Shown: positions 1 to 11,699 of the stretch, piece after piece
Numbering within the stretch: position 1 is the first letter of the stretch
Layout of the letters: each line of letters starts with the position of its first letter
Assembly: GCA_902515095.1 (NCBI GenBank)
Contig: CABXTC010000004.1
Location: 1 to 64,000 of the forward strand
Source: an uncultured Pelagibacteraceae bacterium
GTDB taxonomy: Bacteria; Pseudomonadota; Alphaproteobacteria; Pelagibacterales; Pelagibacteraceae
Reading direction: 5' to 3'
DNA length: 64,000 nucleotides
Notes under the pieces: model-generated
Told to the model about the DNA's origin: nothing
Databases searched by the model: none
The model's input: the letters and a program-made list of their open reading frames with translations, nothing else
Position numbers and translations under genes: made by a program

Positions 1-31
1 GAAATGTGTCTGTACTATCTTTAAACATATT

Positions 32-108
<77 letters not shown>

Positions 109-112
109 GCAT

Positions 113-307
113 TTAAATTCTATTTTTAAGTTTATTTAATTTTTTTACTCTTTTAATATTTTCTTGAAGAATTCTTTTTTTCTTTTCTGATGGTTTTTCA
201 TAATTATTTTTAAGTTTTATTATTTTAAAAAAACCATCTCTTTGGAGTTTTCTTTTTAAAACCCTCAAAGCTTGTTCGATATTATTATCTTTAACTTCTA
301 TTTTAAT
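113..307 (-). CDS. rpsU: 30S ribosomal protein S21, probable AUU start
   Basis: Small basic ribosomal protein of the 30S platform, which helps bring mRNA to the anti-Shine-Dalgarno region. The frame contains the family core KDNN, QALR, LKRK and YEKPSEKKKR. The open frame extends to a TTG at 319, but that codon overlaps a perfect GGAGG at 317-313, so the GGAGG would have no start behind it. An ATT at 307-305 lies 5 nt after the GGAGG. Starting there gives M-K-I-E-V-K-D-N-N, which matches the length and register of alphaproteobacterial S21 (M-Q-V-x-V-R-D-N-N). I therefore place the start at ATT (64 aa). The gene identity is secure; the start codon is an inference. Confidence 0.9.
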   Translation of the reverse strand: MKIEVKDNNIEQALRVLKRKLQRDGFFKIIKLKNNYEKPSEKKKRILQENIKRVKKLNKLKNRI

Positions 308-312
308 AACTA

Positions 313-317
313 CCTCC
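313..317 (-). promoter_or_regulatory. Shine-Dalgarno GGAGG that decides the rpsU start
   Basis: GGAGG at 317-313 is a full-strength Shine-Dalgarno. It is followed by TAGTT and then ATT (307-305). No ATG, GTG or TTG stands at a usable distance downstream in the rpsU frame. Confidence 0.75.
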
Positions 318-370
318 AAAAAAACGATTTGTTATCATCTTTGAAATTCTATGTCTATCTATTTTATTCA

Positions 371-946
371 TTAGTTCGAATTTAGTTTTTGTTGCTTTTC
401 TTTTTCTTTTTTTTCTCTTTTAATTCTTCTTTCTGCTTTCTGAATAGCATCAAGTAAATCTTTTTGTGTAAATAAATTTAGTGCTATTGGATCTTTAGGA
501 TTAAGATTATTAAAATTCCAATAACTTTTATTTCTAATAGATGTAACAGAATTTTTTGTAATACCAACTAACTTTGCTATTTGTGAGTCTTTTAAAATAT
601 TGTGTTGTTTTATTAACCATAAAGCTGAATCTGGTTTATCCTGTCTTTTGGAAAGTGGAATATATTTTTTTATTTTTTTTTCATCATTAGAAATTTCCAC
701 ATCTGTATTATTTATTTGAAGAGGCCTACTCTCATCATTTGAGGAAAGCTCTATCTCCTCTCTTGAAAGTTGACCTGCTATAATAGGATTATAAGCTTTA
801 ATTCCTTTAGCAACCTCACCATCTGCTATACCTTGTATTTCAACTTCATGCATATTGCAGAAATTTGCAATTTGTTTAAAAGTAAGTGTTGTGTTTTCCA
901 CAAGCCATACGGCTGTTGCCATTGGCATCAAAGGACTATTTGACAT
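371..946 (-). CDS. trcR: TrcR-like cell-cycle transcriptional regulator (DUF1013)
   Basis: 191-aa protein of the alphaproteobacterial DUF1013/TrcR family, a putative DNA-binding regulator. It holds two related helix-turn-helix-like segments, residues about 10-42 (TAVWLVENTTLTFKQIA) and about 106-139 (SALWLIKQHNILKDSQIA). They are joined by a charged linker, and the C-terminal tail is lysine-rich. The start codon follows the rpmE stop with no gap, so the two are translated from one message. The family name is recognised from the repeated W-L-(V/I)-x-x-x-x-L-x-x-x-Q-I-A pattern. Its targets in this organism are unknown. Confidence 0.85.
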   Translation of the reverse strand: MSNSPLMPMATAVWLVENTTLTFKQIANFCNMHEVEIQGIADGEVAKGIKAYNPIIAGQLSREEIELSSNDESRPLQINNTDVEISNDEKKIKKYIPLSKRQDKPDSALWLIKQHNILKDSQIAKLVGITKNSVTSIRNKSYWNFNNLNPKDPIALNLFTQKDLLDAIQKAERRIKREKKEKEKQQKLNSN

Positions 947-1177
947 CTAATTTTTTTTTTCCGATTTAAAGTTTTGAAATTTCTTATTAAATTTACTTAT
1001 TCTACCTTTATCCATTAATTTTTGTTTTCCACCTGTCCAAGCAGAATGAGATTTTGGATCGATTTCTAACTTAAGTAAATCACCTTCAGAACCCCAAGTA
1101 GATCTTGTTTCAAATTGAGTACCATCTGTCATTTCAACTTTTATTTTGTGGTACTTAGGATGTATATTTTTTTTCAT
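947..1177 (-). CDS. rpmE: 50S ribosomal protein L31
   Basis: 76-aa L31. The N-terminus [25 protein letters not shown] and HSAWTGGKQ match the family. No cysteines are present, so this is the zinc-free (C-minus) form usual in Alphaproteobacteria. Its stop codon directly abuts the trcR start. The last codons form a run of ten A residues (951-960 on the plus strand as T), a possible slippage tract but at the very end of the gene. Confidence 0.95.
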
Positions 1178-1212
1178 GTCGAGATTTATAGCAAAAGATT
1201 TTTTTAAAACAA

Positions 1213-1953
1213 TTAAAAGTTCATGATTTTTTCATGAAATTTTACATTAATATTTGGATTTGACGTTATAACATTTATATTTTTTATATTGTCCAAGTTT
1301 AAATCTTTAAATATGCCACCAGCCTCTTGCACCAAAACTATTCCTGCCGCGATATCCCATAAATTTAGATTTTTTTGAAAATAACCATCATATCTACCAG
1401 CAGCAACATATGCTAAATCAAGCGCTGCACTTCCAGATTTCCTATTTGTAAAATCGGGCTCATTCATCATTTTTCCACCAACAGCAAACAAACAATCATC
1501 AAGATTATTTTTATTAGAAACTCTAATTCTTTGGTTATTTAAGAAAGCTCCATTATTTTTCTCAGCATAAAACATCTCATCTTTTATAGGGTCGTAAATT
1601 AAACCTGAAACGATTTCATTATCTGATTTTAATGCAATTGAAATTGCAAAATGCGGAATTCCATGTAAGAAATTAATGGTCCCATCTATTGGATCAATTA
1701 TCCAAGTATTATTACTATCTTTATTTTTTTTTATTCCCTTTTCTTCACTAATAAATGAAAAATTTGGTCTTGCTTTCTCTAATTCTTCAATAAGAATTTT
1801 TTCAACTTTAAGATCTGAATTAGTCACAAAATCTGAAGGACTTTTTTTTGAAACCTGTAATTTTTCAATTTCTCCGAAATCTCTAATTAAAATTTTTGAA
1901 GCTTTCTCACTTGCTTTTATCATTATATTTAAATTTGAAGAAATTGAGTTCAT
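1213..1953 (-). CDS. suhB: Inositol-1-monophosphatase family protein SuhB
   Basis: 246-aa Mg2+-dependent sugar-phosphate phosphatase. The metal-binding motifs are visible: E70/E71 in ISEEKG, then D87-P-I-D90-G-T, and D200 in LWDIAAG near the C-terminus. The family hydrolyses myo-inositol-1-phosphate and related substrates, and in some bacteria SuhB also works in rRNA maturation. It lies 4 nt after efp in a minus-strand run, an order (efp-suhB) common in Alphaproteobacteria. The physiological substrate cannot be read from sequence. Confidence 0.92.
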
Positions 1954-1957
1954 ATGA

Positions 1958-2518
1958 CTAAATTTTTTTTACATATTCTAAATTTCGAGTGTCTATAACT
2001 ATCTCATCACCAGACTCTATAAATGGAGGCACCTGAATGTTTAGCCCATTAATTAATTTTGCAGGTTTATAAGACGATGAAACTGTTTGACCTTTTAAAG
2101 CTACATCCGTAGTTTCTATTTTAGAAATAATTTGATTTGGCAATTCGACTGAAATTGGATTGTCATTGTAAAAACTTATAAATACTTCTAAATTTTCAGT
2201 CAATAATTTACCTTTATCACCTACTAAACTTTTCCTTATCTCTATTTGCTCAAAAGATTTTGGTTCCATGAAAAAAAAATTTTCCTCATCTTCATATAAA
2301 TAATTATATACTGTTTCCTCTAAAGATGCCTTTTCTACTGTTTCACTTGATCTAAATCTTTCATTTAATTTTGTATTTTTATTTAAGCTTTTCATTTCAA
2401 CTTGAGCAAATGCTCCTCCTTTGCCAGGTTTTACATGTTGTGTTTTTAAAACTTGCCATAAATCATTTTTATATTCTAACAACATCCCAACTCTTATTTC
2501 GCCAGCATTTATTTTCAT
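1958..2518 (-). CDS. efp: Translation elongation factor P
   Basis: 186-aa EF-P with the KOW-like N-domain (MKINAGEIRVGMLLEY) and two OB domains. It relieves ribosome stalling at proline runs. The conserved tip lysine is K33 in KPGKGGA, the residue that EpmA beta-lysylates in many bacteria; no epm genes are in this window. The start ATG overlaps the thiE stop as ATGA (2518-2515), so translation is probably coupled. Confidence 0.96.
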   Translation of the reverse strand: MKINAGEIRVGMLLEYKNDLWQVLKTQHVKPGKGGAFAQVEMKSLNKNTKLNERFRSSETVEKASLEETVYNYLYEDEENFFFMEPKSFEQIEIRKSLVGDKGKLLTENLEVFISFYNDNPISVELPNQIISKIETTDVALKGQTVSSSYKPAKLINGLNIQVPPFIESGDEIVIDTRNLEYVKKI

Positions 2519-3129
2519 TTTAATTTTTCAATTGCTTCTATTGGTTTTAGTTTTTTATTTTTCCAAATGTAGCCTGAGATAGCTAAAAAGTTTGCCTTAT
2601 TCAATAAGAGTTTTTTAAAATTATTTGAATTAATACCTCCTATGGCAACTGTAGGAGTTTTTGTTATCTTTTTAATCTTTTTTAGCAAACTCAAGTTTGC
2701 TTTATATTTAGTTTTTTTTGTTTTTGAGGCAAAGAACGCACCAAAAGCTAAATAGTCAGCTTTGTTTTTAATTGCTATTTTTGCAAGTCCAATTGAATTA
2801 TGGCACGTAACACCAATTATTTTTTTTTTAAGAATTTTCCTGGCAGAAGTTAATTCCATATCTTTTTGACCCAAATGGCATCCATCTGTATTCAATTTTT
2901 TTGCTAGAAACACATCATCATTCATTAAAAATTTTACTTTATATCTTTTGCATATTTTTTTAATTTTTCTTCCAATAACAATCTTATTTTTAAAGGATAC
3001 TTTCTTTAGTCTTAGTTGAAAAAAACTAACTTTTTTGGTTTTGAAAATATTAGTAAGATCCTTGTAGAAAGATTTTTTAATTTTATTTGGAGAAATTAAA
3101 TAAATAAATTTTTTTTTATTGATTTTCAA
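2515..3129 (-). CDS. thiE: Thiamine-phosphate synthase
   Basis: 204-aa TIM-barrel enzyme that joins HMP-pyrophosphate to the thiazole phosphate to give thiamine phosphate. Recognisable motifs are YLISP at the start, QLRLK, MNDD (residues 69-72), DGCHLGQKD (82-90) and the phosphate-binding AIGGIN. Lysine content is very high, as elsewhere in this genome. The start is TTG at 3129, 14 nt inside the end of fba, and the gene ends in an ATGA overlap with efp. A second thiamine gene, thiD, lies at 21987. SAR11 strains are known to lack thiC and to need exogenous HMP, which this gene pair would fit. Confidence 0.9.
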   Translation of the reverse strand: MKINKKKFIYLISPNKIKKSFYKDLTNIFKTKKVSFFQLRLKKVSFKNKIVIGRKIKKICKRYKVKFLMNDDVFLAKKLNTDGCHLGQKDMELTSARKILKKKIIGVTCHNSIGLAKIAIKNKADYLAFGAFFASKTKKTKYKANLSLLKKIKKITKTPTVAIGGINSNNFKKLLLNKANFLAISGYIWKNKKLKPIEAIEKLK

Positions 3130-11207: not shown

Positions 11208-11699
11208 GTGTTAATTGTTGGCATAGACCCAGGAATATCAGGCTCAATTTGCTTTTTTGAGGAGGGTAAAATTTTGGATGTTATCGAAATGCCAGTTATG
11301 ACCGATGGAAAAAAGAACAAAAAACAAGTAAATGGTGCGCAAATTTATAACGAAATTTTTAAAAGAATTGATACCAGCCACAAAGATATAAGAGTTGTAA
11401 TTGAACAAGTTTCTGCAATGCCAGGTCAAGGTGTAACGAGTATGTTTAACTTTGGACAGTCATTTGGAATATTGAAAGGAATATGTTCAGCGATGCAGTT
11501 ACCAATGTTTTTTGTTAGACCTGCTAAATGGAAAAAATATTTTAACTTAATAAACTCCCAAAAAGATGCTAGCAGGACAAGAGCTATTGAAATATTTCCT
11601 TATTTTTCGGCACAACTATCAAAAAAAAAGGACTCCAACAAAGCTGATGCTATTTTAATAGCTAGTTTTTACTACGAAACGTACAAAAAGGACGAGTAA
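11208..11699 (+). CDS. RuvC-like Holliday junction nuclease, phage-type
   Basis: 163-aa RNase H-fold nuclease starting at GTG 11208. The acidic catalytic residues align with RuvC: D7 in GIDPG, E66 in VVIEQV, and D142 and D147 in KKDSNKADA. The rest departs from cellular RuvC. The blocks EMPVMTDGKK, VSAMPGQGVTSMFNFGQSFG and RPAKWKK are, from memory, typical of RuvC-like proteins of phages and prophages. The gene keeps the normal chromosomal position after yebC, but ruvA and ruvB, which usually follow, are absent and tolQ comes next. I expect it to cut branched DNA. Whether it works with RuvAB encoded elsewhere is unknown. Confidence 0.8.
   Translation: MLIVGIDPGISGSICFFEEGKILDVIEMPVMTDGKKNKKQVNGAQIYNEIFKRIDTSHKDIRVVIEQVSAMPGQGVTSMFNFGQSFGILKGICSAMQLPMFFVRPAKWKKYFNLINSQKDASRTRAIEIFPYFSAQLSKKKDSNKADAILIASFYYETYKKDE

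Follow-up and report, generated by a model that had tools for sequence, protein, structure and literature searches.

An AUU start codon conserved on rpsU in Pelagibacteraceae and a possible limit on S21 synthesis at start-codon selection

The rpsU gene, which encodes ribosomal protein bS21, lies near the beginning of the window, that is, the whole stretch of 64,000 nucleotides analysed here, and it raises the question of which codon starts its translation. Few genes are known to use AUU-class starts, and how bS21 is controlled has been worked out in Bacteroidota only; for E. coli, a review describes the regulation of rpsU as unknown (PMC10931766). An earlier note had proposed that, on the minus strand, GGAGG (317-313) is followed after 5 nt by an ATT (307-305) that serves as the start, and these coordinates were confirmed (Table 1). 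When read from the upstream TTG, the frame scores above the cut-offs of both bS21 models, with 57.9 bits for PF01165 (cut-off 27, 8e-16) and 53.2 bits for TIGR00030 (cut-off 28.95, 2e-14), and it is the sole S21 match in its own genome, the assembly of which is 92.6% complete. The Lys codon after ATT falls on position 2 of TIGR00030, which places ATT at model position 1, where the earlier note had put the beginning of the S21 N-terminus. On the minus strand, a 63-nt gap separates the trcR-type gene from rpsU, which is followed by a tRNA; an Rfam scan of positions 1-3000 of the window returned nothing but this tRNA.

Table 1. Annotated parts of the rpsU locus, with positions counted in the window.
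Feature	Position	Strand	Basis or remark
rpsU (ribosomal protein bS21, 64 residues counted from ATT)	113..307	-	PF01165 and TIGR00030 matches
ATT start codon of rpsU	305..307	-	152 ATT and 2 ATC among 154 family loci
rpsU stop codon TAA	115-113	-	
Shine-Dalgarno GGAGGTA	311..317	-	7 contiguous pairs with 16S tail GGATTACCTCCTT; 16S tail from own genome
TTG, sole in-frame standard codon upstream of the rpsU ATT	317..319	-	judged non-start; overlaps Shine-Dalgarno
Extended -10 element TG-A-TAACAA	329..337	-	spacer 17 from -35; 21 nt from -10 end to ATT
-35 element TAGACA	352..357	-	promoter pattern conserved across family loci
tRNA-Met (CAT), initiator features	32..108	-	ARAGORN and Rfam; 4 nt past rpsU stop
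trcR-type cell-cycle regulator gene	371-946	-	PF06242; directly upstream of rpsU
L31 gene	947-1177		upstream of trcR-type gene

The start codon was compared across 154 rpsU loci of Pelagibacteraceae (SAR11) with 148 distinct 50-nt upstream sequences. Among these loci, 111 come from the window's own genome, other genomes of its genus, and named records of Pelagibacteraceae, and the rest from other genera of the family; the two genome collections may overlap, and two loci (L010 and L088) are apparently identical upstream. The start position was defined by anchoring on the V of VxDNN and taking the codon four before it. This codon is ATT in 152 of the 154 loci and ATC in the other 2, while ATG, GTG, and TTG occur in none. 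The Ile codon two positions past the start is ATA in 144 loci, ATC in 6, and ATT in 3, with GTA in one. Since this neighbouring Ile site is mostly spelled ATA, the ATT is hardly a plain Ile codon. No in-frame ATG, GTG, or TTG exists upstream in 46 of the 154 loci, and in 8 of the 154 a stop codon stands at most 3 codons upstream of ATT. The distance between GGAGG (or its variants) and ATT is 5 nt in 130 loci, 6 nt in 9, 4 nt in 8, and 9 nt in 7. Because this spacing varies by non-multiples of three, the frame of the upstream and Shine-Dalgarno (SD) region is not conserved.

The window contains the motif GGAGG-N5-ATT four times, where 1.6 occurrences are expected, and 9 of 100 shuffles also reach four. 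The motif alone is thus compatible with chance, and its significance is drawn from conservation. When GGAGG-N3-9 was combined with the S21 N-terminus, the ATH form of the pattern was found in 109 of the 111 genus-level loci and the ATG, GTG, TTG, and CTG forms in none of them. The ATG form was also absent from 399 genus genomes (299 with a recognisable S21; many assemblies are incomplete). A standard start behind GGAGG in relatives, which the earlier note had regarded as a finding against its reading, was not encountered in these sets. As in infC-type genes, an AUH codon stands at the conserved N-terminus in all 154 family loci, 46 of which lack any upstream standard start, and also in 37 of 37 loci of the order's second family. 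Judged from these comparisons, AUU is almost certainly the true start of rpsU.

The alternative would be translation from the TTG at 319, which would yield a protein with an MEVV extension. This TTG is the first standard start of the frame and the only one up to ATT, as the earlier note had stated, and it overlaps the SD. It is kept in 105 of the 154 family loci, the window included, which counts against the AUU reading, as does a GTG that overlaps the SD end, besides TTG, in five loci (L021, L067, L080, L099, and L105). However, TTG is lost in 49 of the 154 loci, changes in the GGAGG-ATT spacing shift it out of frame in some genera, and the pairing upstream of it is weak (-2.4 kcal/mol). Initiation at TTG is thus very improbable. 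The call of an AUU start stood, with ATT conserved, TTG kept in 105 of 154 loci, and 46 of 154 loci without any upstream standard start. As for the pattern that the earlier note had expected in relatives, the retention of ATT and the inconstancy of TTG were borne out, whereas the N5 spacing proved not to be invariant (4, 5, 6, or 9 nt).

With the start at AUU, the 15 nt upstream pair with the 16S tail of the same genome at -12.2 kcal/mol, with GGAGG 5 nt before ATT, a strong SD at a suitable distance. The other 65 ORFs of the window all fall short of this value (best -11.7 kcal/mol, median about -4.0), and each of them was scored at the best start in its first quarter, a procedure that favours them over rpsU; the 66th ORF of the list is the rpsU frame itself. 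The rpsU SD is the strongest among the ORFs of the scored 64 kb. Some other window genes carry SDs too, and 25 of the 63 window genes of at least 100 codons lack even a 3-nt SD core. A 16S tail pattern with the common end GGATCACCTCCTTT matched none of 21 genomes. With one base opened, 9 of the 21 matched as GGATTACCTCCTT, all of them in the genus and the own genome included, and the opened pattern had no match in eight second-family genomes. The 16S tail of the own genome (L417, contig C12) reads GGATTACCTCC, and its T lengthens the pairing with GGAGGTA; many bacteria have C at the place of this T. The second-strongest SD of the window, in the plus-strand ORF 11208-11699, was set aside, as it stands at an internal codon and the ORF has an ordinary GTG start at 11208. 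This ORF is without a Pfam hit, and its N-terminus MLIVGIDPGISGSI is, presumably, reminiscent of RuvC-like resolvases.

Upstream of the SD, a promoter of the form T[AGT]GACN, a spacer of 16-18, and TG-N-TA is present in all 153 family loci that could be evaluated (the remaining one of the 154 is too short) and in none of the 154 shuffled upstream sequences. This looser pattern was chosen after inspecting the misses of a stricter first one, which gave 124 of 154 loci, including one without a -35 match, the tallied hexamer of which is an artefact. The spacer is 17 in 147 loci, 18 in 5, and 16 in 1, and the -35 variants are TAGACA (124), TGGACA (22), and TAGACT (7). In 120 of the 153 loci, the -10 element ends 21 or 22 nt before ATT. 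From the usual promoter spacing, transcription would start near 322 and leave a leader of about 15 nt before AUU. The fold of the leader RNA is nothing special compared with shuffles (z 0.00), which counts against the best reading given below. A short upstream ORF (RTG-NTA...) that governs rpsU via termination-reinitiation at ATT was also considered, and the window does contain an 11-codon ORF, read by eye, whose TAA overlaps ATT. However, the RTG of this ORF is the TG of the extended -10 element, and the phase in which it lies to ATT varies (71, 47, and 6 of 124 loci across the three phases), so that such control is barely credible. Both the upstream TTG start and the upstream mini-ORF were rejected, the former on its SD overlap, loss, and frame, and the latter on the -10 and phase evidence.

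Downstream of rpsU and on the same strand, a tRNA-Met(CAT) was found within 300 nt in 140 of 150 evaluable family loci (four of the 154 are too short to judge), a few nt past the rpsU stop in 115 loci and about 230-250 nt away in 14. Within this distance it is missing from 10 of the 150 family loci and from every one of the 37 second-family loci; the other alphaproteobacterial loci likewise have no tRNA-Met at this place. Initiator tRNAs are recognised by a CAT anticodon, unpaired C1/A72, and a G:C-rich end of the anticodon stem. The tRNA of this locus has CAT, and C1 and A72 in sequence; its anticodon-stem end AGG/CCT gives A-U, G-C, and G-C rather than three G-C pairs, as in 142 of 142 family tRNAs. 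A second-family copy of the initiator tRNA (L344) has the same A-U/G-C/G-C stem end. The initiator tRNA gene is probably single-copy, because the own genome and G012, a genome in a single contig, each show this one match only; G007 holds a second, partial match.

The spacing of a few nt suggests that rpsU and the initiator tRNA are probably on the same transcript in most of the family. This linkage (140 of 150 loci) fits a tie between rpsU and initiation capacity. It is not a general reason for the weak codon, since the second-family AUH loci and the 10 family loci are without it. In the metY-nusA-infB operon of E. coli, the initiator tRNA is found together with IF2. The tRNA adjoins an initiation component here as well, with probable co-transcription, but its partner is rpsU, with the tRNA in the downstream position, and the link was found only in the window's family.

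Starts of the AUH type on rpsU are not limited to Pelagibacteraceae. The 37 loci of the order's second family (25 distinct upstream sequences) have theirs shifted one codon upstream, with ATA in 36 and ATC in 1; an in-frame standard start is missing from 34 of them, and in the other 3 the sole such codon is an ATG that precedes the anchor by 17-21 codons. A class-wide search found S21 in 199 of 210 alphaproteobacterial genomes. From the 196 non-Pelagibacterales genomes with S21, 117 loci were read in a non-random choice (30 best scores, 48 low-scoring genomes, and 40 from the plus-strand matches listed); L238, where the anchor pattern failed and GTG is read, was omitted from the table. These 117 loci (range L215-L332) start with GTG in 54 cases, ATG in 24, TTG in 17, and AUH in 22. 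The AUH loci comprise 10 ATC, 8 ATA, and 4 ATT and span 15 families, as assigned by hand from the record handles. In 15 of the 22, the 14 codons upstream contain no standard codon; in six, a GTG overlaps the SD like the TTG of the window, and the remaining one carries a TTG 12 codons upstream. The standard start in 95 of the 117 loci counts against the best reading, and twelve further alphaproteobacterial loci outside this set (L365 and L395-L405) all have GTG, ATG, or TTG. Where other Alphaproteobacteria start rpsU with GTG or TTG, the start position is homologous and AUG is uncommon (24 of 117), but a standard alternative start is used there, unlike the AUU here. In other classes of the phylum, 58 loci gave 45 ATG, 10 GTG, and 3 TTG (two TTG read by eye), and no AUH start was seen among them. 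Within this sample, only Alphaproteobacteria show AUH starts of rpsU, and AUG is an uncommon start of the gene in that class.

The infC gene was read in the same order (loci L192-L208). In the genus of the window, it starts with GTG directly after TAA in 9 of 9 loci with a complete N-terminus, so that infC does not harbour the classic AUU loop in these nine loci. In the second family, infC starts behind AGGAG with ATA in 7 and ATC in 1 of 8 loci. In this small sample, the second family has AUH at both infC and rpsU, and the genus of the window at rpsU only.

No report of an AUU, AUA, or AUC start for rpsU was found in the accessible parts of the open-licence PMC literature, which is weak evidence of absence. 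Neither "S21" nor "rpsU" occurs in the main text of a paper on Pelagibacter structured RNAs (PMC2704228) or of one on marine transcription start sites (PMC5069720). AUU-class starts and translational control of rpsU are each known, and no report of their combination was found in the open-licence texts available. A start at AUU or AUA runs through this whole order of highly abundant marine bacteria, and 15 further alphaproteobacterial families of the sample show similar starts. Automatic annotation that accepts ATG, GTG, and TTG only would misplace the rpsU start or miss the protein. The conservation of AUU behind a strong SD in close relatives suggests a deliberate limit on S21 production, and the AUH start shared across the order argues for a second lineage that controls its S21 supply through start-codon selection.

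Comparison of the sequences shows which codon starts rpsU and that this codon is constrained, and it equally supports the SD, the promoter pattern, and the tRNA neighbour. With AUU as the start, translation of rpsU would lean on the SD and be limited at start-codon selection. The closest known systems are infC (IF3) and pcnB of E. coli and infC, cvfC1, and ccpN of S. aureus, which combine a conserved AUU/AUA-class start with a strong SD, as rpsU does here. IF3 represses infC through its AUU start, according to PMC9410913. In S. aureus, AUU and AUA starts with strong SDs give approximately a tenth of the AUG output in poor medium, as stated in PMC13009471, and a title cited there describes pcnB as translationally limited by its AUU start. 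By analogy with these cases, low yield and IF3 sensitivity may be expected for rpsU. The present case differs in that the gene is rpsU and in that infC itself has GTG in the nine genus loci read.

A mechanism can be outlined from these features. The near-consensus promoter would yield a very short leader that holds little besides the strong SD. SD pairing would hold the 30S subunit on rpsU, which must then accept a mismatched start codon, and the initiator tRNA would read AUU as formyl-methionine to give MKIEVKDNN.... As in AUU/AUA genes of the infC and pcnB type, the yield per mRNA would be low, with start-codon selection as the limit, a step that would be policed by IF3 and depend on the initiator tRNA. 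Selection would hold the codon weak, with AUG one substitution away, so that S21 supply may track the state of initiation. Most family members would probably obtain the initiator tRNA from this transcript too. Translation of rpsU is, on balance, likely to be start-codon-limited and initiation-sensitive. It is plausible that the codon couples the S21 level to initiation fidelity, and a feedback loop may run through IF3, the initiator tRNA, or S21 itself.

The same features would also be produced by plain attenuation without feedback, in which the weak start merely scales S21 output down, for instance as the initiator tRNA may require a promoter whose strength would otherwise lead to overproduction of a 64-residue protein. 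The near-consensus promoter, the tRNA a few nt downstream, and the parallel of pcnB, likewise translationally limited by AUU according to the title cited in PMC13009471, are consistent with this explanation. However, the second family has AUA and AUC starts without that tRNA, and a weaker SD would also cut output, yet the rpsU SD is the strongest in the window; simple attenuation is considered unlikely, though a real candidate.

The strength of the SD bears on another explanation, in which S21 regulates itself in a Flavobacterium-like manner, with ribosomes lacking S21 favouring the strong-SD rpsU mRNA and AUU enforcing SD dependence. According to PMC9976891, bS21-deficient ribosomes of F. johnsoniae prefer rpsU because of an extended SD, for which 9-13 contiguous pairs are reported. 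The gene is the same, and the SD here is likewise far above that of a typical gene of the genome region, being the strongest in the window, where 25 of 63 genes lack a 3-nt SD core. In contrast, the pairing here is shorter, with 7 contiguous pairs in the window with the own 16S tail instead of 9-13, SAR11-type genomes use some SDs, as several window genes do, and the part of PMC9976891 available makes no mention of an AUU start for the F. johnsoniae rpsU. Autoregulation of this kind appears doubtful for the present locus.

The start-codon-limited reading can be extended, tentatively and as an outcome that is itself rather unlikely, to an initiation-capacity operon of SAR11 type. The S21 mRNA and the sole initiator tRNA would come from one promoter. 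Through its AUU start, S21 synthesis would respond to IF3, initiator tRNA, and free 30S subunits, which would balance S21 with start-codon stringency. The IF3-sensitive codon would have moved from infC to rpsU, and pelagiphages with their own AUG- or UUG-started bS21 would escape this control. Phage bS21 was read in 137 loci (L419-L555; the best 80 of one scan and all 57 of another), in which L489 and L490 are without an anchor, and none of the phage or viral-contig loci examined requires an AUH start. Repeats were collapsed to 83 distinct viral-contig loci, where the nearest in-frame standard codon at most 14 codons away is ATG in 48, TTG in 24, and GTG in 1; among the remaining 10, 8 have a standard codon farther upstream (more than 14 codons) and 2 are false anchors (L456 and L555). 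In named phages (loci within L211-L214), bS21 starts with ATG in the Pelagibacter phages HTVC008M and Aegir and the Methylophilales phage Melnitz-3, and bS21 of the phage Mosig starts with TTG.
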